64,000 nt of DNA from Acrocarpospora phusangensis. Its GTDB lineage: Bacteria; Actinomycetota; Actinomycetes; Streptosporangiales; Streptosporangiaceae. Within the stretch, counting starts at the first letter, position 1. The number at the start of each line of letters is the position of its first letter. Shown here piece after piece: positions 28,279-37,503 of the stretch. Position numbers and translations under genes: made by a program. Under the pieces are notes generated by a model. That model was given only the letters and a program-made list of their open reading frames with translations. It did not search any database and had not been told where the DNA came from. The DNA lies in NCBI RefSeq assembly GCF_016862995.1, contig NZ_BOOA01000029.1:1-64000 (forward strand), in the 5' to 3' direction.

Positions 28279-28539
28279 CGGGTACGCCTTCCGGGGTCGG
28301 GCTGGGTCCGCCGTGGCCAGAATACGATTCGGTTTCGTGCAGGTACACCGTTCTGGGGGATTGATACCCGCTGGAGCGCTCCCGCTGAACGGCAAACGTC
28401 TCTTCTGTTACAACTGGGCCACAAGCTTGGTAAGGGTGTTCAAGGGGCTGCTGAGATCCTTGTTGAGCCCCTAGGATCACGTCTGTTTCATGTTTGAGTG
28501 GTCCGATTTGGGCCGATCTTCGACCATTCGGAGCGTGCG

Positions 28540-29862
28540 GTGTTCAGGCGGCGATCAGTACTCCGACAAGCGGCTGTCGCATCTGGCCTGGGCATCTTGA
28601 GCGGTGCCATCTTATTGATCGGCCCCGCGGAGGCGGTGGACACCGATCACCGCACGTATGACTACCTGTGCAAGGGGGCATTGGTCGAGGGCACCAAGCC
28701 TCTGAAGGTCACCGTCTCCGTCCCGCGCACGGTTACCAGTGGTCAGGGCCTCCAGGTGGGGTGGGCGCTCGGCGACTCGCCGTTCAAGGCACCGGAGGCG
28801 CTCGCGGTCGGCGCGAAGCTGTCCGTGAAGGCTTCGGCTGTGATTGCCAACTATTGGGATGGCACCGGTCTGCTTGAGTCGACCGGGAGCAGCACAACCA
28901 CGGCTGCTCTCGCGAAGGGTGCCGCGTTAACCCTGCCGACCATCACCGCTGGCTCTTACATGACCAGCCGTGACGGCACCATCAACGCGAAGCCCAGCGA
29001 CCTGGTCTTCAATCTCGCGCCTGCGGAGACTTCGAGCCTCTTCAACGACACCATCGTCGCTGACCCCGGTGAGGGTCTCGTTCGCGGATGGTTCAACTTC
29101 GGCAATCAGTGGACCTACGCGGGCAATCGCGCGAATGTGGAGTTCGCGTCCGGCAGCCTCAAGGACTATCAGGACGACATCCAGCACGCGACGGTGGACA
29201 ACGCGACCGCGACGGTGAAGTTCACCGGGACCGGGATCGACATCCTCTCGGAGCGGGACAACGACATGGGCCAGGTATCCATCCTGCTCGATGACGCGAC
29301 GACACCTGTGATCAGGGACGCCTCGAAGAAGGCGGACGGGACCCCGCTGGGCGCGACCGAGCCCAACAAATTGGGGCAGGAAGCTCTCTGGTCTGTGAAG
29401 GGCCTGGCCTATGGGGAGCACACAGTGAAGCTGTCCAAGGTCAGCGGGACTCCCGGCGGGACCTACATGATCCTCGATGCTCTCAAGGTCTACGCGGAGT
29501 CGAAGCCCGAGCTCTACAAGGCTTTCGAGACCAAGTGCGAGGCCCCCACGGACGTCGTGGTGTCCCAGATCAAGGTCGTCAAGCCCAGCGCGACGCCGTC
29601 CTCCAGTAACCACACGACGGTGTCGCCGACGCCTAGGCCGACTACGACGACGACCGTTACGGTGACGCCGTCGGCTTCGACCAGTCAGTCGCCGCAGGTG
29701 ATCGTCACGCCGAAGGGTGGGGCGCAGACCGGGGAGATGGCGGTTGAGGGGCCTTCGGGGCGGGTTTATATCTGGCTCGGGGTTGTGCTGGTGTTGGGCG
29801 GTGTGGGCGCAGGGCTGGTCTGGCGGCGGCGTGTCAAGGCGGACGCCGGGCGCGCGGGCTGA
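28540..29862 (+). CDS. Sortase-substrate surface protein with galactose-binding-like domain
   Basis: The GTG at 28540 is chosen for its ggag 6 bases upstream (28498 lacks one). The 440-residue product has a signal peptide (about 1-32, ending AEA-V), a beta domain beginning YLCKG (about 40-165), and a jelly-roll module (about 168-322) with FTGTGIDILSERDNDMGQV and KGLAYGEHTVKLSK, resembling carbohydrate-binding, galactose-binding-like domains. A Thr/Ser/Pro stalk follows, then TPKGGAQTG (390-398), a membrane helix (409-428) and a basic tail RRRVK. The C-terminal layout is that of a sortase substrate, and a sortase gene follows 15 bp downstream. Confidence 0.72.
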   Translation: MFRRRSVLRQAAVASGLGILSGAILLIGPAEAVDTDHRTYDYLCKGALVEGTKPLKVTVSVPRTVTSGQGLQVGWALGDSPFKAPEALAVGAKLSVKASAVIANYWDGTGLLESTGSSTTTAALAKGAALTLPTITAGSYMTSRDGTINAKPSDLVFNLAPAETSSLFNDTIVADPGEGLVRGWFNFGNQWTYAGNRANVEFASGSLKDYQDDIQHATVDNATATVKFTGTGIDILSERDNDMGQVSILLDDATTPVIRDASKKADGTPLGATEPNKLGQEALWSVKGLAYGEHTVKLSKVSGTPGGTYMILDALKVYAESKPELYKAFETKCEAPTDVVVSQIKVVKPSATPSSSNHTTVSPTPRPTTTTTVTVTPSASTSQSPQVIVTPKGGAQTGEMAVEGPSGRVYIWLGVVLVLGGVGAGLVWRRRVKADAGRAG

Positions 29863-29877
29863 GGTTTTCGGGGTGTC

Positions 29878-30921
29878 ATGAACGAGCTGGAGCCGGGTCA
29901 GCAGCCGTCGCACATGCAAGGGCCGCAAGGGCAGCCGATGCAGGTGCCGCAGGTGTACCCGCAGGCCGTGCAGCCACAGCTGATACAGCCGCAGGCCGGG
30001 CAGCCACAGCCGCAGGCCGTGCAGCCGATGCAGCCGCAGCCGGTGCAGCAGCCGGGAGTGGCGCCCACGTCGGTGGAGTTGACGCCCGCGCAGCAGCACG
30101 TCATGCAGATGGCGCAGCAGTACCAGATGCAGGTTCAGCAGGCGGTGCCGCAGCAGGCGCCGGTGGGGCCTGAGGAGCAGCGGCGGCAGCGGTGGAACAA
30201 GGCGTTGCCGGCGATTTTGGTGGTCGGGTCCTTCGGTGGGATCGCGCTGATCATGGCGGGGTTGCTGGCGGTGTTGTCGCCGCAGGAGGCCGCGATCCAG
30301 GGGCCGCCGGGGCCGGGGATCACGCCGATGGCGCAGCCGGGGGCGTTGCCGCCGACGGTGGGGCCAGGCGGGGCCGATGTTCCGCTCACGGCGGCGGCTC
30401 CGAGCGCGCCACCGCCGATCCCGGCCGTGGTGCCGGTGGACCCGATCGTCAGCACCGGCGCGGTCGCCCCCGCGAGGATCGTCATTCCGCAGGTCGGGCT
30501 CAACGCTCCGCTTCGTTCTGTGGGGGTTCTCCGGAACGGTGAGGTTCAGGTGCCGCCGCTGTCCATGCCCAGGGTCGCCGGGTGGTACAAACTCGGCCCG
30601 GTGCCCGGCCAGCCGGGACCCGCGGTGATCCTCGGCCACGTCACCACCAAGCGCGGACCCGCCGTCTTCCACCGTCTCCGCGAGGTGAAGCGCGGCAACA
30701 AGATCCAGGTTGTCAGGACCGACGGCACGGTGGCCGAATTCACCGTGGACGGGGTCGAACAAGTCAGCAAGAACACCTTCCCGACCAATCGTGTGTACGG
30801 CAGGCTGGATACCGCCGGGCTTCGCCTCATCACCTGCGGCGGCGTCTACAACCGCAGAACCGGCCACTACACGGACAACATCATCGTCTACGCGACCCTG
30901 AGCGCCACCAAGACCACGTAG
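29878..30921 (+). CDS. Class F/E-like sortase with Gln-Pro-rich cytoplasmic head
   Basis: The 347-residue protein has a cytoplasmic N-terminal stretch of ~100 residues rich in Gln and Pro, a signal-anchor helix (110-133), a Pro-rich linker and a C-terminal sortase barrel (about 197-343). The catalytic triad is His254 (ILGHVTT), Cys320 (LITCGG) and Arg326 (YNRRTGHY). The transpeptidase would cut a sorting signal and attach the protein to the wall. It is paired with the upstream substrate gene. The T-C-G-G context fits class F of actinobacteria, but class assignment by eye is approximate. Confidence 0.85.
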   Translation: MNELEPGQQPSHMQGPQGQPMQVPQVYPQAVQPQLIQPQAGQPQPQAVQPMQPQPVQQPGVAPTSVELTPAQQHVMQMAQQYQMQVQQAVPQQAPVGPEEQRRQRWNKALPAILVVGSFGGIALIMAGLLAVLSPQEAAIQGPPGPGITPMAQPGALPPTVGPGGADVPLTAAAPSAPPPIPAVVPVDPIVSTGAVAPARIVIPQVGLNAPLRSVGVLRNGEVQVPPLSMPRVAGWYKLGPVPGQPGPAVILGHVTTKRGPAVFHRLREVKRGNKIQVVRTDGTVAEFTVDGVEQVSKNTFPTNRVYGRLDTAGLRLITCGGVYNRRTGHYTDNIIVYATLSATKTT

Positions 30922-31112
30922 ACCCCCGTACGGACCCGAACCACGCAAGCCAGCGCAAAGTAAGCAGGCACCTCAGCAGATCGGCCCAGTCCTTCAACGG
31001 GTGACCGGATTCCCAGCCAGAATTCAGCGGATTCTCAGGATTCGCCCGGCATATAACTCGATATTTCCTGAAATGCTGATGCGCTATCTGGCCACCACCT
31101 AGGGGAGCGGAA

Positions 31113-32060
31113 GTGACGACCACCACCGGACGACACCGCCTGGCCACCAGAGCCGCCGTCGCCGGAGCCGCCGCCTTCCTCGGCCTGATCGCCCTCCCCG
31201 TCCTCGCCGCCGACTTCGACGATACGGTCCGCTACAACTGCTCCAGCACCACCTACCCCCTCCAGGTGACGCTGGACGGTCCGGCCGCCAACCCGACGCC
31301 TAGCCAGGTCGTCACGGTGACCTGGGCCATGGCTCCGGATGCCCCGTCCAGCCCGGCGGAGGGCGGCGCTCCAACAGAGTCTCTGCTGACCGCACCGGTG
31401 GACATCTCACCGAGCGACGCTGTGGTGATCGAGGGCAAGGCGACCATCACGGGCCTGCCGCTGGGTGCGACCACGATCTCGGCGTCGCCTAGCGCCACCG
31501 AATCGGCTGTGGCGTTGCTGACCGCGAGCGCAACGATGTCGCTGATACCCGACATGGTGCTGGTGTTCACGCCCACGGCGACAGGCACGGTGGCTGTCGC
31601 CGCGGGCGGCTTCGTTCTTAAGATCATCCCGTCTGGCGGCGGCTCGACCAGCACCCCCTACACCTGCGAGCTCGCCAACCCGGCGTCGCTGGCGACTCTT
31701 ACCATCGCGGTCGTCACATCCGCCGCGACGTCCGAGTCGGACGACCCCACCACCACGACGACCCAAACCGCGTTCGAGACGGAGACGGTCACGGCGACGG
31801 CGACCGAAACGGAGACCGAGACGGTGACCAACTCGGTTGATACGACCAACACGGTTTCGGTCACGAACACGAGGCAGATTGGGATCACGCCGGTGGGTGG
31901 GGCGCAGACCGGTGGGGGCGGGGATCTGGGGCCGGACGCGCGGCTCATCATGATGGCCGGGACGGCGCTCATCGGGGCCGCCGCCATCGGTGGCCTGGTC
32001 CTTCGTCATCGCCTGGGCCGCCGCCTCAGCCTTCACGCCAATCGTGGTACGGACACCTGA
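31113..32060 (+). CDS. Sortase-substrate surface protein (YNC...YTC domain)
   Basis: The 315-residue product starts with GTG 5 bases after gggag. A signal peptide (about 1-32, ending VLA-A) precedes a beta domain bounded by two Cys (RYNCSS and PYTCEL), probably disulphide-linked. A Thr/Glu-rich stalk follows (ETETVTATATETETE). The C-terminus has TPVGGAQTGGGG, then DLGPDARL, a membrane helix and a basic end (RHRLGRRL). The domain and sorting region closely match the next gene, so the two are probably duplicates. Confidence 0.72.
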   Translation: MTTTTGRHRLATRAAVAGAAAFLGLIALPVLAADFDDTVRYNCSSTTYPLQVTLDGPAANPTPSQVVTVTWAMAPDAPSSPAEGGAPTESLLTAPVDISPSDAVVIEGKATITGLPLGATTISASPSATESAVALLTASATMSLIPDMVLVFTPTATGTVAVAAGGFVLKIIPSGGGSTSTPYTCELANPASLATLTIAVVTSAATSESDDPTTTTTQTAFETETVTATATETETETVTNSVDTTNTVSVTNTRQIGITPVGGAQTGGGGDLGPDARLIMMAGTALIGAAAIGGLVLRHRLGRRLSLHANRGTDT

Positions 32061-32242
32061 TGCGACACACGCACACCATGTTTGTTAGGTTCCCTCGGTG
32101 TGGGTAATCGATGACAGATCGACCGTATCCACCCCAGACCCCATGACAACTCCATAGGATCGGAAAACCGAACCGTGACCATGGGCTGGAAAGCTGGGCC
32201 AACCGTAAACCGGGCAGACTGTCTGAAATGGGAGATAGGTCA

Positions 32243-33112
32243 GTGCTGAAGTTGAAGGCACGGCGTCGCATCGCCACCAAGGCCGCCGCAGCCGGAGTTG
32301 TCAGCGCAGGCATCCTCTTCGGCGTCTTACCCCTGTTCGGAGCCACCGCGGACACCAAGACGATCACTTACAACTGCACGACCTCGGGCGGCGATCCGCA
32401 GAACCCGGACCTCATCACCACGCTGACCGCCACCGCAACGGCCGGTACCACCGCCACCTCCATCCAGAGGATCGCGATGGTCTGGACGAACCTGAACACC
32501 GTCACCGGCAAGATGATGACCGCGCCCGTCACCATCAACACCACCGACACCGTGATCTTCGAGGGTGAGATCGTGATGACCGGCCCTCAGACGGGCGTCA
32601 CAGCCACGGTCACGGCGTTGGCCACGCTGACCCCCGCCGCGCAGGTCGCGCAGGGAGCGGCGATTCCGTTGCCGACCGTCTCCGTGACGGCGACCCCGGC
32701 CGCCACCGGCACCGTCTCGGTGAAGACCACCGGATTCCTGCTGACCATCGGTGCGAGCACATCCGCCCGGGAATACGATTGCGCCATGGCCTCCACCGCG
32801 ACCGCAGCCGCCGCCACCGTCGTGGTCGCCAGCGGCGCGGCCAGCCCGAGCCCCACCCCCACGCCCACACCGAGCCCGACGCCCTCGGCCACCACCCCCA
32901 CTCCCCGCCAGACCAGAACGTTCACCGCGACCGTCACCGCCAGCCAGCCCGGCCAGGTGACCAACACCCCCGGCGGTGGTGTCTCGACCGGCGGCGGCGG
33001 TGAACTGGGCCCCGACGGGCGGCTGCTCGTTCTTGGCGGGACCGCGCTGATCCTCGCCGCCATCACCGGCGGGCTGATGCTGCGTTCGCGGCGCGGCGCC
33101 GTACGCCAGTAG
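32243..33112 (+). CDS. Sortase-substrate surface protein, paralogue of the preceding gene
   Basis: The GTG at 32243 (MLKLKARRR) is preferred because gggagatagg precedes it; the in-frame ATG at 32228 has no ribosome-binding site. The 289-residue product has a signal peptide (ending GATA-D), a beta domain from TYNCTT to EYDCAM, and a Ser/Thr/Pro stalk (PTPTPTPSPTPSATTP). The C-terminus has TPGGGVSTGGGG, ELGPDGRL, a membrane helix and an R-rich tail. A TGTVSV..GF.L.I block is shared with the previous protein (TGTVAVAAGGFVLKI). Its stop lies 7 bp before the second sortase gene. Confidence 0.72.
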   Translation: MLKLKARRRIATKAAAAGVVSAGILFGVLPLFGATADTKTITYNCTTSGGDPQNPDLITTLTATATAGTTATSIQRIAMVWTNLNTVTGKMMTAPVTINTTDTVIFEGEIVMTGPQTGVTATVTALATLTPAAQVAQGAAIPLPTVSVTATPAATGTVSVKTTGFLLTIGASTSAREYDCAMASTATAAAATVVVASGAASPSPTPTPTPSPTPSATTPTPRQTRTFTATVTASQPGQVTNTPGGGVSTGGGGELGPDGRLLVLGGTALILAAITGGLMLRSRRGAVRQ

Positions 33113-33119
33113 GACGCGT

Positions 33120-33950
33120 ATGACGACGCCGCCGGGACATTTTCCGCCCGGACATCCGGGATACCAGCAGCAGGTGTACGCGCAACCCGCCTACCAGCCG
33201 TACGCGCAGGAGTATGAGAGGCGTCCCCGGCTGAACGGGACGCAGGTCGTGCGGGCGGTGCTGATTCTGGCCGCGCTGGCCGGGGTGGCCACGGTCGCGG
33301 CCGGGCTGATGTTCTGGCTGGGCTCGCCGGAGGAGTACGCGGCGCCGGAGCGGACCACGCTGCGGTCGCAGGCGGGCGTGCTGGCGCCGAGCGTGGGGCC
33401 GGGCGGGCCGGGGCAGATGGCCCAGGCGGAGCCGTCCGCGCCGCCGCCGGCGCCGCCGTTGCCCGCGGCCGAACCGCTGCTGCCCTCCTCGCCCAAACGA
33501 CTCATCATCGCCAAGCTCGGCATCAACGCGCCGATCAAGTCGGTGGGCCTGGACAAGCGCGGCGCGATCGAGACGCCGCCGATCGCCAACCCCAACCTCG
33601 TCGGCTGGTACCGCGGCGGCCCCACCGCCGGCCAGGCCGGGCCCGCCATCATGCTGGGCCACAAGGACACCCAGACCCGCAGCGCCGTCTTCAGCCGCCT
33701 CCACGAACTCCGGTACGGCGACACGGTCGAGGTCATCCGGGGCGACGGCACCATCGCCATCTTCACCGTCGGCGGCGTCGAGCAGGCCAACAAGGAGACC
33801 TTCCCCACCGACCGCGTGTACGGCAACGCCGACGACGCGGAGCTGCGTCTCATCACCTGCGGCGGCACCTACAACCGGAGCACGGGGCACTATGTGGATA
33901 ATGTCATCGTGTACGCGAGAATGACCGGAACGCGGCTCGCGAACTCCTGA
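33120..33950 (+). CDS. Class F/E-like sortase, second copy
   Basis: The 276-residue sortase has a short Tyr/Pro/Gln-rich head, a membrane helix (43-67), a Pro-rich linker and the catalytic barrel (about 126-272), with His181 (MLGHKDT), Cys247 (LITCGGTYN) and Arg253 (NRSTGHY). The barrel is clearly similar to the first sortase (both have TFPT(N/D)RVYG and LRLITCGG), while the N-terminal heads differ. It is close behind the two paralogous substrates, so it is likely their cognate enzyme. Confidence 0.86.
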   Translation: MTTPPGHFPPGHPGYQQQVYAQPAYQPYAQEYERRPRLNGTQVVRAVLILAALAGVATVAAGLMFWLGSPEEYAAPERTTLRSQAGVLAPSVGPGGPGQMAQAEPSAPPPAPPLPAAEPLLPSSPKRLIIAKLGINAPIKSVGLDKRGAIETPPIANPNLVGWYRGGPTAGQAGPAIMLGHKDTQTRSAVFSRLHELRYGDTVEVIRGDGTIAIFTVGGVEQANKETFPTDRVYGNADDAELRLITCGGTYNRSTGHYVDNVIVYARMTGTRLANS

Positions 33951-34005: not shown

Positions 34006-35043
34006 GTGGGCCTGCTATCGAATCTTCTGTTGCCGGGGCGGCTTAGGACGGGGCCCACGGTTCTGTTGCCCGCGAAGGTGAAGCCGGACGCGCTGCTGGA
34101 GGCCGTACAGCTCGCCGATCCGACCGCGGCGCAGGACGGCGAGGAACTGCTCGCGGCCGGGACCCGGATCCACGCGCCGCTGGAGTTGACCGCCGACCTG
34201 TTGCGGAAGCTGAGCATCGAGGACGAGGAACGGCTCTGGGCGTACCGGGTGGTGGCCGAGCGGCCGCTGCCGATGGACTACTACGACAAGTTCCTGGCGG
34301 CCGGGATCGCGTACCGGTACGGCGGGTGGTCGCTCTGCGAGGGTTCCGCGGACGACCCGGCCGAGGACGATTCGCGCCTGGCGGCGGTGTACCTGCCGGA
34401 AATGCCGGACCAGGAGGAACTCGCCGCCCTCCTCCGCGGCCTGCTACGCCTCCCGGAAGCCACCGAAACCGCCGAAACCACGGAAGCCACCGAAGCCGCC
34501 GGAACCACCGCCGAGGCTGAAACCGAAGAAGCAGAAGAAGCCGAGGTAGCCGCCGCTGAGGAGACCGCATCCGCGGAAGCGGCATCCGAGGAGGCGGCGT
34601 CCGAGGAGGCGGCGTCCACTGAGGCCGCGTCTGAGAGCGCTGCTTCCGACGAAACCACGCCCGAAGCCGGTTCCGAGGCTGCGACGGACGACACCGCGTC
34701 CGAGGAGGCCGCCTCTGAGGAAGAGGTGGATGAGCCCGGGAAGAGCGGGCTGGTGGTTCAGGCGGGGCAGAGCATCGTCTACACCGGGGCCGACATCCAG
34801 GTCACCGCCAGCTATGAGACGCGGTTCCCCGCCGTGGTCGCGGGGCTGCTGCCGTACGCGACGGAAGTGGTCAGGATCGCGGTGCGGGCGCTGGAGGACG
34901 GCGAGCTGGAGGGGGACGATCTCGTGCTCGAACCCGGCAAGGTGGCGCTGGCTCTGGGGAGCGCGCTGGACGGCCCGGTCGTGGACGCGTGGGGCTTCCA
35001 GATTCTGGAAGCGGAGGATCTGCTGCCCGCGCGGCGCGCCTGA
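34006..35043 (+). CDS. Hypothetical protein with acidic Ala/Glu/Ser low-complexity linker
   Basis: The 345-residue cytoplasmic protein has a GTG start behind gaggaggagg. The N-terminal part (about 1-145) has MGLLSNLLLPGRLRTGPTVLLPAKV and a Tyr-rich MDYYDKFLAAGIAYRYGGW. Residues ~150-245 are an Ala/Glu/Thr/Ser tract with repeated AASEEAASEE. The C-terminal part (about 250-345) is ordered and acidic (IQVTASYETRFPAVVAGLLPYA). No signal peptide, membrane helix or known motif is seen. It ends in a strong terminator, so the sortase block stops here. The function is unknown. Confidence 0.6.
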   Translation: MGLLSNLLLPGRLRTGPTVLLPAKVKPDALLEAVQLADPTAAQDGEELLAAGTRIHAPLELTADLLRKLSIEDEERLWAYRVVAERPLPMDYYDKFLAAGIAYRYGGWSLCEGSADDPAEDDSRLAAVYLPEMPDQEELAALLRGLLRLPEATETAETTEATEAAGTTAEAETEEAEEAEVAAAEETASAEAASEEAASEEAASTEAASESAASDETTPEAGSEAATDDTASEEAASEEEVDEPGKSGLVVQAGQSIVYTGADIQVTASYETRFPAVVAGLLPYATEVVRIAVRALEDGELEGDDLVLEPGKVALALGSALDGPVVDAWGFQILEAEDLLPARRA

Positions 35044-35162: not shown

Positions 35163-35678
35163 TCAACCAGCGACACCGAACCGGCCACAGTGGTGGTGGC
35201 GGTGGTGGATGTGGCCGAAGTGGTGGTGGCGGTGGTGGAAGTGGCCATGCCCGTGGTGACGGTGGTGGTGGTGGCCGTGGTGGCGGTGGTGGCCCCAGTG
35301 ACGGTGCTCGCCCCAGTGACGGTGGTGACCGAAGACCCGGTGCTCACCGTGGTGGCGCTGGTCGCCGAAGTGACGCTGCTCGACGAAGAAGCGCTGGTTG
35401 TTGAACTGGCGCTGGTCGTTGTCCTGGCGCTGACGGTTGTCGATGTCGATGTCGATGTCGTCGTGGTGACGGCGCCGCTCCTCGGGGTCGTGCTGCATGA
35501 GGTTCTCGGCAGCCTCGCCCGGGCCCTCCGGCTGCGCCGGGACGACCGGCTGGACCTTCGCGGTCGCGCTCAGGGCGACAGCGGCGGCGTGCGCGCTGGG
35601 GGCCATGGCGAACATGGCGGCGACGGCCGGAACAACGGCGAAACCGGTCGCCAGAGCGAGCTTGAGTTGGCTCTTCAT
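35163..35678 (-). CDS. Secreted histidine-rich protein
   Basis: The 171-residue product begins MKSQLKLALATGFAVVPAVA with a signal peptide ending AHA-A (about 30). The linker has DIDIDID and Asn/Gln/Arg-rich repeats (QFNNQRFFVEQRHFGDQ). The last ~71 residues hold about 32 His in H-H-x, R-H-H and G-H patterns and end HHHCGRFGVAG. Agagagg upstream supports the start. It probably binds Ni, Zn or Cu outside the cell; no catalytic motif is seen. A Val-rich frame on the other strand is its shadow. It is divergent from the L,D-transpeptidase. Confidence 0.7.
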   Translation of the reverse strand: MKSQLKLALATGFAVVPAVAAMFAMAPSAHAAAVALSATAKVQPVVPAQPEGPGEAAENLMQHDPEERRRHHDDIDIDIDNRQRQDNDQRQFNNQRFFVEQRHFGDQRHHGEHRVFGHHRHWGEHRHWGHHRHHGHHHHRHHGHGHFHHRHHHFGHIHHRHHHCGRFGVAG

Positions 35679-35988
35679 TAGACGATCCTCTCTTTTATGA
35701 GAAACGATGCGAGATTCGTCGATCCCGTATCTAAGTGATCTTCTTACTCGAATCGCTTGCTACTTGTCGATCTCCCCGATTTTCGAAAGAAGCCGACACA
35801 CTCATGCGTAAAGGACGATTGATTTTCACACAAGCCGATTCTTTGCAATACGACACGGCGTGGCGTTATTGATTGGCTCTGACATGGTGGTACGGCCCTG
35901 CCGGAGACGAACCGCTCGTGTCGCCGTCCTTAATTTCGGGCCTTCGCATGTCATAGTTCCTTCGTTGGTTTCTTTTCGGAGGTGTCCG
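35679..35988. other. 310-bp intergenic region between the divergent His-rich and L,D-transpeptidase genes
   Basis: The region is distinctly AT-richer than its surroundings and must hold divergent promoters and the ggaggt ribosome-binding site at about 35978-35983. I see no gene, no matched Nur or Zur box and no terminator. A frame open from 35860 into the transpeptidase lacks a start signal. Weak -35-like ttgcaa lies at 35843-35848. Confidence 0.5.
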
Positions 35989-37503
35989 ATGCGAGTACCT
36001 TTTTTGCTCTCGATAGCCACCGGTAGCGCGATCGGCGTTTTGGTCCCCGTTTTCGGTGATGTCCTGGGCGCGACCGCCCACGCCGAGATCGCGTACGCCA
36101 AGCGCGCCGTGACCGCGTTCACCGAGCCCGCCCAGGCCACGCCGGCCCAGGGCAAGCCCCGGACGAAGGGGCACAATCGCGCCCGCGGGAAGGGCGCACG
36201 TCACTACCGCGTGCGCGGGGGAGTCCACTACCGGGCCGGGCACGCCAAGGCGGGCGTCAGGAGGGCCCAGACGCGGGTGCAGGGGCCCATGGCGCGCCGC
36301 ATCCGGCTCATGGAGCGCGCCGCCGAGCGCAAGGTCGAGAAGCAGATGATGCGCCAGGCCGAGCTCAAGCAGGAGCGGCGTGTCGAGCAGACCCGGCATC
36401 GCCAGGCGGGGCGTCCGCACCACCGGCGTTACGAGGAGCCGCGCCAGCGCCATGCCGAGCGCCCGCAGCCGCGTTACGCCTCAGAACCGCGGCAGCGTTA
36501 CGCCGAGGAGTCGCGCCCGCGTTACGTCGAGCAGCCGCAGCAGCGCTATGCCGAGCGTCCGCAGCCGCGTTACATGGAGGAGCCCCTGCAGCGCTTCGCC
36601 GAGGAGCCGCGTCAGGGCTACTTCGAGCAGCCGCAGTCGCGCTACTCCGACGACTCGCGGCAGCGCTACGCCGAGCAGCCCCAGCAGCGTTACGCCGAGC
36701 GCCCGCAGTCGCGTTACGCGGAGCAGGACCGTTACGACGACCGTTCGCAGGACGGTTACAGCTCGCGCCCGATGATTCGTCCTATTTCGTACCCGCAGGA
36801 CCGTCCGCGTGCCATCGCGCCTATGAACCTGCCCGACGGAATTAAGCGACATTTGCCCCGTGTCACTACTTGGTCCACTTTGCCCAGAGTGCCCCGGGAT
36901 CACCACGCTTTCGCGCGGACCAGTGGCCGCATCCTTCATCCGACGAAGCCGAAAATCGTTTATGGCCGCCCCGGCGGAAAGCCGATCGGCGTCCTGCCCA
37001 CTCATTTGGTAGAAAGTCCGACATGGGTCCCGGTAGTGGACTCGCGACCGGATTGGGCGCGCGTGCTCCTGCCCAGCCGTCCCAACCATTCGACCGGCTG
37101 GATTCACACCGGCTCGGGTGGCGTGCAGTACTCCCACAGCGACTACAGAATCAATGTCGACCTGAGTTCGCACCGAATGTCGATTCACCGGGGCGGCCGC
37201 GTCGTGGGCAGTTGGCGGGTGGCCACCGGCGCCGCGCGCACGCCCACCCCGGTCGGCCGCACGTTCGTCATGTCCGCGGTCGACACCGGCAAGGGGTACG
37301 GCGTGCCGGTGCTTCCGCTGGGCACCCACTCGCCCACCCTGCGCACCTTCGACGGCGGCCCCGCCACCATCGGGCTGCACGGCTGGTCCGACTCGAGTGT
37401 GTTCGGCCAGAGCGTCAGCAACGGCTGCGTCCGCGTGCCCCGGTCGGCCCTCCAGACGATGGCGAAGGTCCCGATGGGCACCGTGGTCACGATCGGCAGA
37501 TGA
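35989..37503 (+). CDS. L,D-transpeptidase with octapeptide RY-repeat stalk
   Basis: The ATG at 35989 follows ggaggt and gives a signal peptide (about 1-31, ending AHA-E). The 504-residue product has a basic Lys/Arg/Ala segment (about 50-146), then about 13 octapeptide repeats (147-257, pattern R-Y-A-E-x-P-x-Q) rich in Arg, Tyr, Glu and Pro, a linker, an SH3-like stretch, and a C-terminal YkuD catalytic domain (about 385-504) with the motif HGWSDSSVFGQSVSNGCVRV containing the catalytic Cys. It would make 3-3 peptidoglycan cross-links or anchor proteins. The strongly positive repeat stalk is unusual. Confidence 0.82.
   Translation: MRVPFLLSIATGSAIGVLVPVFGDVLGATAHAEIAYAKRAVTAFTEPAQATPAQGKPRTKGHNRARGKGARHYRVRGGVHYRAGHAKAGVRRAQTRVQGPMARRIRLMERAAERKVEKQMMRQAELKQERRVEQTRHRQAGRPHHRRYEEPRQRHAERPQPRYASEPRQRYAEESRPRYVEQPQQRYAERPQPRYMEEPLQRFAEEPRQGYFEQPQSRYSDDSRQRYAEQPQQRYAERPQSRYAEQDRYDDRSQDGYSSRPMIRPISYPQDRPRAIAPMNLPDGIKRHLPRVTTWSTLPRVPRDHHAFARTSGRILHPTKPKIVYGRPGGKPIGVLPTHLVESPTWVPVVDSRPDWARVLLPSRPNHSTGWIHTGSGGVQYSHSDYRINVDLSSHRMSIHRGGRVVGSWRVATGAARTPTPVGRTFVMSAVDTGKGYGVPVLPLGTHSPTLRTFDGGPATIGLHGWSDSSVFGQSVSNGCVRVPRSALQTMAKVPMGTVVTIGR
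36427..36759 (+). repeat. Tandem 24-bp coding repeats (octapeptide stalk)
   Basis: About 13 degenerate 24-bp units encode R-Y-A-E-(x)-P-(x)-Q, with centres gcgttacgcc or gcgctacgcc. The units are diverged in third positions, so the array is probably old and under protein-level selection and not a recent slippage expansion. Confidence 0.7.

Follow-up and report, generated by a model that had tools for sequence, protein, structure and literature searches.

Class F sortases paired with neighbouring genes that carry a P-x-G-G-(A/V)-x-T-G signal in Acrocarpospora phusangensis and other actinomycetes

A five-gene locus with two sortases and three candidate substrates

The stretch analysed here, referred to as the window, comprises 64,000 nucleotides from the soil bacterium Acrocarpospora phusangensis (NCBI RefSeq assembly GCF_016862995.1, contig NZ_BOOA01000029.1, positions 1 to 64,000). 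According to its open reading frames (ORFs) and their translations, it holds five genes in the order S1, SrtF-a, S2, S3, SrtF-b, all on the plus strand, where SrtF-a and SrtF-b encode sortases and S1, S2 and S3 encode secreted proteins that we regard as their candidate substrates. The gene coordinates agree with the interleaving proposed in a first-pass annotation, a substrate-sortase module followed by a substrate-substrate-sortase module, and the C-termini are as described there: TPKGGAQTG, TPVGGAQTG and TPGGGVSTG, in each case ahead of a membrane helix and a basic tail.

S1 (28498..29862, 454 amino acids) combines a hydrophobic segment at its N-terminus with a beta-sandwich ectodomain into which a second beta domain is inserted, a stalk rich in Pro, Thr and Ser, and a candidate sorting signal at its C-terminus, as judged from its ORF, from a structural model with a mean predicted local distance difference test (pLDDT) of 78, and from profile comparison with S2 and S3. 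The signal, TPKGGAQTG (29707..29733), precedes an E-x-x-x spacer, a membrane helix and the tail WRRRVKADAGR; it represents the S1 subtype, with Gln at P2, positions being counted back from the T-G. The enzyme that pairs with it, SrtF-a (29878..30921, 347 amino acids, catalytic domain near 30460-30900), starts after a gap of 15 bp. S2 (31113..32060, 315 amino acids) carries TPVGGAQTG (31887..31913) and a GGGDLGPDAR spacer, so that its P2 is like that of S1 and its spacer like that of S3. In S3 (32228..33112, 294 amino acids), the signal TPGGGVSTG (32966..32992) is followed by a GGGELGPDGR spacer, a helix and an RSRR tail, and defines the S3 subtype, with Ser at P2; SrtF-b (33120..33950, 276 amino acids, catalytic domain near 33465-33926), with which S3 pairs, begins 7 bp downstream. 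The hydrophobic N-terminal segment, the stalk, and the C-terminal motif, helix and basic tail are common to the three secreted proteins, as is one beta domain, to which S1 alone adds an inserted one.

The nearest relatives of SrtF-a are found in Acrocarpospora corrugata (89%) and A. pleiomorpha (86%), and the gene order, including the flanks, is kept in both other Acrocarpospora loci (L057 and L058). A Foldseek search with the S1 ectodomain returned only poor whole-chain matches, with a template modelling score by query of at most 0.22 among the matches listed. Carbohydrate binding by this ectodomain was considered and set aside, as the match to CE2_N (expect value, E, 0.016) and the partial similarity to the CEX esterase 6hfz were too weak.

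The two enzymes belong to class F

Against the NCBIfam class F model NF033748, SrtF-a reaches 196.9 bits and SrtF-b 200.8 bits, above its curated cut-off of 166; on sequence grounds, both window enzymes are class F sortases. The predicted structure of SrtF-a (mean pLDDT 90.1) aligns with 7f87_A over 132 residues (Z 17.2, root-mean-square deviation 2.2), and in this model the enzyme has the sortase beta-barrel fold. No protein of solved structure is closely similar in sequence; the search gave a single match, sortase D 4d70 (E 0.00094).

The first-pass annotation had credited both enzymes with the His, Cys and Arg of sortases. The His and the Cys are indeed present, each kept in 260 of 261 aligned class F domains, whereas the Arg is not: its position, equated by eye from N-I-I-V-Y in class F and R-L-I-V-Y in class E, is occupied by Asn in 257 domains, both window enzymes included, and by Ser in the other 4. 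The Arg is kept in the non-class-F sortases of the same genome. An Arg to Asn change in actinobacterial class F sortases has already been reported (PMC6998099; cited papers are represented here by excerpts of their text). The residue at Cys-4 is basic in 255 of the 261 domains (Arg 222, His 25, Lys 8); we conjecture that it is possibly the relocated catalytic residue that replaces the Arg.

The signal within the window and its genome

The strict motif P-x-G-G-(A/V)-x-T-G is found in 3 of the 53 predicted genes of the window, which are exactly S1, S2 and S3. A profile built from 56 signals, with all rows from the window, from L057 and L058 and from the own-genome locus L040 removed, also recovers exactly these three proteins among 317 window ORFs (E 1.8e-18, 2.2e-18 and 3.5e-21) and gives no match among 6,340 residue-shuffled window ORFs. 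In agreement with the first-pass description of a signal other than LPxTG or LAxTG, neither motif precedes the helix in S1, S2 or S3, and the models PF00746 and TIGR01167 each match only 2 of 63 family signals at E <= 0.01. The suggestion that Gly-Gly takes the place of the Leu-x spacer needs correction: when positions are counted back from the T-G, the Leu and Pro of LPxTG correspond to Gly at P4 and Ala or Val at P3, and an invariant Pro lies upstream of P4.

Searched with the family profile, which includes the signals of the window itself, the A. phusangensis genome gives five significant places, namely the three window signals, one on C95 and one on C84, and the next hit has an E of 0.079. 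The C84 match, TPAGGVATG (C84:8752-8904, L366:2523-3509, minus strand), would be a fourth substrate, unlinked to a sortase gene. The genome has six class F sortases, five of which have a partner of this general kind: both window enzymes and those on C95, C13 (TPKGAVDTG) and C111 (TKAPGAGGGG). The sixth, on C1, is without an upstream partner.

Partners of class F sortases across actinomycetes

To describe the partners from the side of the enzymes, we pooled 250 class F domains for which 900 bp of upstream sequence was available; a partner with a C-terminal helix was recognised for 199 of them, and 135 of these partners carry the strict motif, a figure weighted towards relatives of the window (91 of 105 there, compared with 41 of 89 class-wide). 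The class-wide set of 118 genomes, drawn evenly from the class, contains 132 class F sortases with 900 bp upstream, 89 of them with a detected partner. These 89 include 41 with the strict motif, 17 with another P(2-5)TG form and 22 in which Ala-Gly stands instead of Thr-Gly (e.g. PHAGGGG). None of 60 control ORFs with a C-terminal helix more than 1.5 kb from a sortase has the strict motif; among nearer non-partner ORFs it occurs in 15 of 54, mostly S2 genes. When 62 diverse partners that are otherwise about 9% identical by column are aligned, the consensus P-x-G-G-x-x-T-G-x-G-G-x-A still emerges; their ectodomains include CHRD (6), ice-binding-like (4) and DUF4397 (4) domains.

The linkage was also examined from the side of the signal, since the first-pass annotation had raised the concern that the motif might be common far from sortases. 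The NCBIfam model NF058571, GVDTG_CTERM (GVDTG sorting domain), applied at E <= 1e-5, gives 38 matches spread over 32 of the 118 genomes, in at least 75 of which class F sortases are present. Among the matches listed, 35 of the 38 have a class F domain at a distance of no more than 2 kb; 33 of these are upstream of it on the same strand and 2 are on the opposite strand. Of the remaining three, the first stops 14 bases short of the end of a contig on which a class F domain starts at base 207, the second sits at the edge of its contig and the third is about 40 kb away from a class F domain. In 41 family genomes, the family profile gives 47 matches, 36 of them no farther than 2 kb from a class F domain. 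The outcome of this check, which could have refuted the first-pass reading, thus favours it.

These data bear on the explanation that class F enzymes are ordinary LPxTG/LAxTG sortases, that the PxGGxxTG tails are membrane anchors or substrates of another enzyme, and that the neighbourhood is incidental. Propionibacterium acnes SrtF, a class F enzyme by its name in the literature, has been reported to act in vitro on LPQTGE (PMC7451113), and on C1 a protein with LPKTG adjoins the class F gene. However, the LPKTG gene on C1 is downstream of the class F gene, with a non-class-F sortase gene directly downstream of itself; no credible LPxTG occurs in the 89 class-wide partners, in which 3 regular-expression matches are attributable to chance; and the GVDTG_CTERM matches cluster by class F genes as described. 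We consider this explanation improbable. Given its position, the LPKTG protein on C1 was not retained as a class F substrate, and neither was an LAKTG protein near a class F gene at L092, where the next enzyme was not examined.

Two variants of the signal were seen. In the first, Ala replaces Thr at P1 in the form K/R-A-P-x-A-G-G-G-G-T, as in the own-genome partner on C111 (L041) and at L116, L119, L120, L126-L130, L264, L268 and L269. Several columns of the sortase alignment differ strongly between enzymes with Thr and Ala partners, without correction for descent, and no determinant is claimed. In the second, the motif is repeated in tandem: the class F partner at C95:3058-3801 (L040:3058-3801) has five strict copies between Asp-rich linkers, and 4, 7 and 6 copies were counted by eye in three congeners and 2 to 4 in two other genera (loci with the tandem motif: L333, L334, L335; L220, L225, L245; L304, L317, L319, L322). 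At least two motif matches are present in 13 of 201 partners, 8 of which are of the tandem kind.

Two signal subtypes, each paired with its own enzyme

We compared 78 loci, the window and 77 sortase relatives fetched by similarity. A locus was scorable if it had two sortases, each with a recognised upstream signal (n = 34); the remaining 44 have one sortase or no recognised signal within the stretch examined. Signals with the GPD(G/A)R spacer were called S3-type and those without it S1-type. In all 34 scorable loci, the signal ahead of the first sortase is S1-type and the one ahead of the second sortase is S3-type. The P2 residue is Q in 23, D in 6, H in 3 and E in 2 of the S1 signals, and A in 24, S in 6, D in 3 and E in 1 of the S3 signals, and it differs between the two signals in 31 of the 34 loci. 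The middle substrate, recognised in 13 loci, shares its P2 with S1 in 10 of them and with S3 in the other 3.

A tree of 143 class F domains was built with FastTree after removal of rows more than 86% redundant and of nearly all partnerless rows. The 26 rows with an S3-type partner upstream, SrtF-b among them, are set apart from all other rows by a branch with support 99. For the S1 label, which the pattern used also assigned to some distant enzymes, 6 changes are required. For all labels, 29 changes were observed, compared with 82 when labels were shuffled. As shared descent inflates such counts, the tree indicates stable pairing and not specificity. The first-pass proposal that the two enzymes are paired with different signals is thus upheld by the scorable loci and by the tree: each enzyme pairs stably with its own signal subtype.

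Stable pairing might also arise if the two sortases were redundant, both accepting every PxGGxxTG tail, so that the subtypes would reflect only the descent of gene pairs. S2 mixes both subtypes, the P2 residues of S1 and S3 overlap in Asp/Glu in some loci, and the subtypes are inherited together with the gene pairs, so that their correlation is no proof of specificity. Against redundancy stand the unbroken subtype assignment, the within-locus difference at P2 and the second sortase itself, which a genome search recovered in 14 of 14 genomes specifically checked, each with a pair of class F domains some 2 kb from one another. An apparent loss of SrtF-b in Nonomuraea and relatives was rejected, as the same genome search and a hidden Markov model scan found the enzyme; an explanation in which SrtF-a would handle both subtypes by itself in those genomes was abandoned accordingly. 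We regard redundancy as somewhat unlikely.

Proposed mechanism

We propose, with fairly high confidence, that class F sortases cut P-x-G-G-(A/V)-x-T-G signals and attach the product of the neighbouring gene to the cell wall, each enzyme acting on its own subtype. S1, S2 and S3 would be exported and then retained in the membrane through their C-terminal helix and basic tail. Either SrtF-a or SrtF-b would cut between the Thr and the Gly of the motif and join the Thr carboxyl to an amino group of the wall precursor, as other sortases do. We infer this cleavage and attachment because the fold, the catalytic Cys and His, the C-terminal layout and the T-G are shared. SrtF-a would act on S1 and, by its P2, also on S2; SrtF-b would act on S3 and probably on the unlinked fourth substrate on C84. 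The enzymes are likely to discriminate by P2, which is large polar or acidic in signals for SrtF-a and small in those for SrtF-b, and by the GGGG-x-x-GPD(G/A)R spacer.

Several observations weigh against this proposal. In the 41 family genomes, 11 of the 47 family-profile matches are away from any class F sortase. They are single unlinked genes, one each in 11 of the 17 family genomes having the signal, and form one family, ten of them matching the C84 gene with 40-55% identity (E <= 1.6e-35). Ala at P2 in 8 of these 11 suggests that they are SrtF-b substrates acting at a distance. Class-wide, 9 of the 89 partners fit neither signal form, and 43 of the 132 class F sortases have no partner by the detector used. 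Both enzymes of a locus face the same P2 residue in 3 of the 34 scorable loci, P2 is Asp or Glu in 4 of the 34 S3 signals, and the compared relatives are correlated, the 77 loci having been chosen by likeness to the window enzymes. In the literature, the sole class F enzyme tested in print is P. acnes SrtF, which is reported to use LPQTGE (PMC7451113), and the combined deletion of four class F sortases in Actinoplanes missouriensis is reported to be without phenotype (PMC13251363).

The presence of several substrates with related ectodomains beside more than one sortase would also fit a polymerase, in which SrtF-a or SrtF-b links S1, S2 and S3 to each other in a pilus-like manner and not to the wall. 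The S1 model, however, shows compact beta domains, and no pilin motif turned up, although none was searched for; we hold this to be very improbable. A broader interpretation is that class F forms a separate sorting branch, with Asn for the catalytic Arg, perhaps with the basic residue at Cys-4 as its stand-in, reading Gly-Gly-x-x-(Thr/Ala)-Gly without a Leu-Pro core. In some genomes, tandem substrates (4 to 7 copies with Asp-rich linkers) could then allow one enzyme to cut or cross-link one chain at many sites, yielding an acidic wall coat of graded lengths. As a whole, this interpretation is speculative and we think it unlikely.

Relation to known sortases and signal models

GVDTG_CTERM has the same core and C-terminal layout as S1, S2 and S3, in which the tripartite arrangement of motif, helix and basic tail is present. 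The model matches 47 of the 63 family signals at E <= 0.01 and 32 of the 62 diverse class F partners. On S1 and S2 it scores 10.3 and 19.1 and on S3 it gives no match, all under its curated cut-off of 29 bits; the best stretches in the genome search reach 14.3, 23.7 and 14.2 bits, respectively. GVDTG_CTERM is a model name, and its assignment to an enzyme is not visible in the sources used. The first-pass annotation had left open whether the signal has been described: a model of it exists, and no paper on a GVDTG-type sorting signal was found in the open-access literature, where absence is weak evidence. The class F family is thus known and the signal type modelled in NCBIfam, while, as far as these searches reach, the signal is unpublished.

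The excerpts of PMC5148588 give specificities for classes A to E and none for class F, and state that the sortases characterised up to then recognise a PXT core; those of PMC6998099 likewise assign no sorting signal to class F. SrtF-a and SrtF-b agree with class F as known from NF033748 and from the Asn reported in PMC6998099. The class E enzymes SrtE1/E2 of Streptomyces coelicolor resemble them in being actinobacterial, in the fold and in having a non-LPxTG signal of their own, but that signal is LAxTG (PMC5148588), and the residue at the Arg position separates the window enzymes from the non-class-F sortases of their genome, which keep the Arg. Papers of 2020 and 2026 describe class F sortases as having no assigned function or role (PMC6998099, PMC13251363). 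In the two substrate screens of PMC13251363 and PMC6998099, one filter consisted of six LPxTG-like pentapeptides and the other was PF00746; given these LPxTG-type filters and the few family signals that PF00746 matches, both screens could have missed the proteins described here.

Many actinomycetes have several class F sortases, yet their role is unassigned in print, and the same pairing of enzyme and signal recurs across many of these organisms. A subtype-resolved, genome-wide signal candidate names substrates for them and makes their role directly testable. If the operon does encode two orthogonal enzyme-signal pairs, they would be useful as ligation tools.

Genes downstream of the operon

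Directly after SrtF-b, positions 34006-35043 encode a protein with a long Glu/Ala/Thr/Ser repeat region, whose start is kept in L057 and L058. On the minus strand, 35163-35678 encodes a small secreted protein whose C-terminal half is very rich in His, and a similarly starting homologue is present in both Acrocarpospora loci. An L,D-transpeptidase (YkuD, PF03734, E 1.6e-15) with a long, repetitive, Arg/Tyr/Glu/Pro-rich N-terminal part is encoded at 35860-37503, 1.9 kb past the sortase operon.

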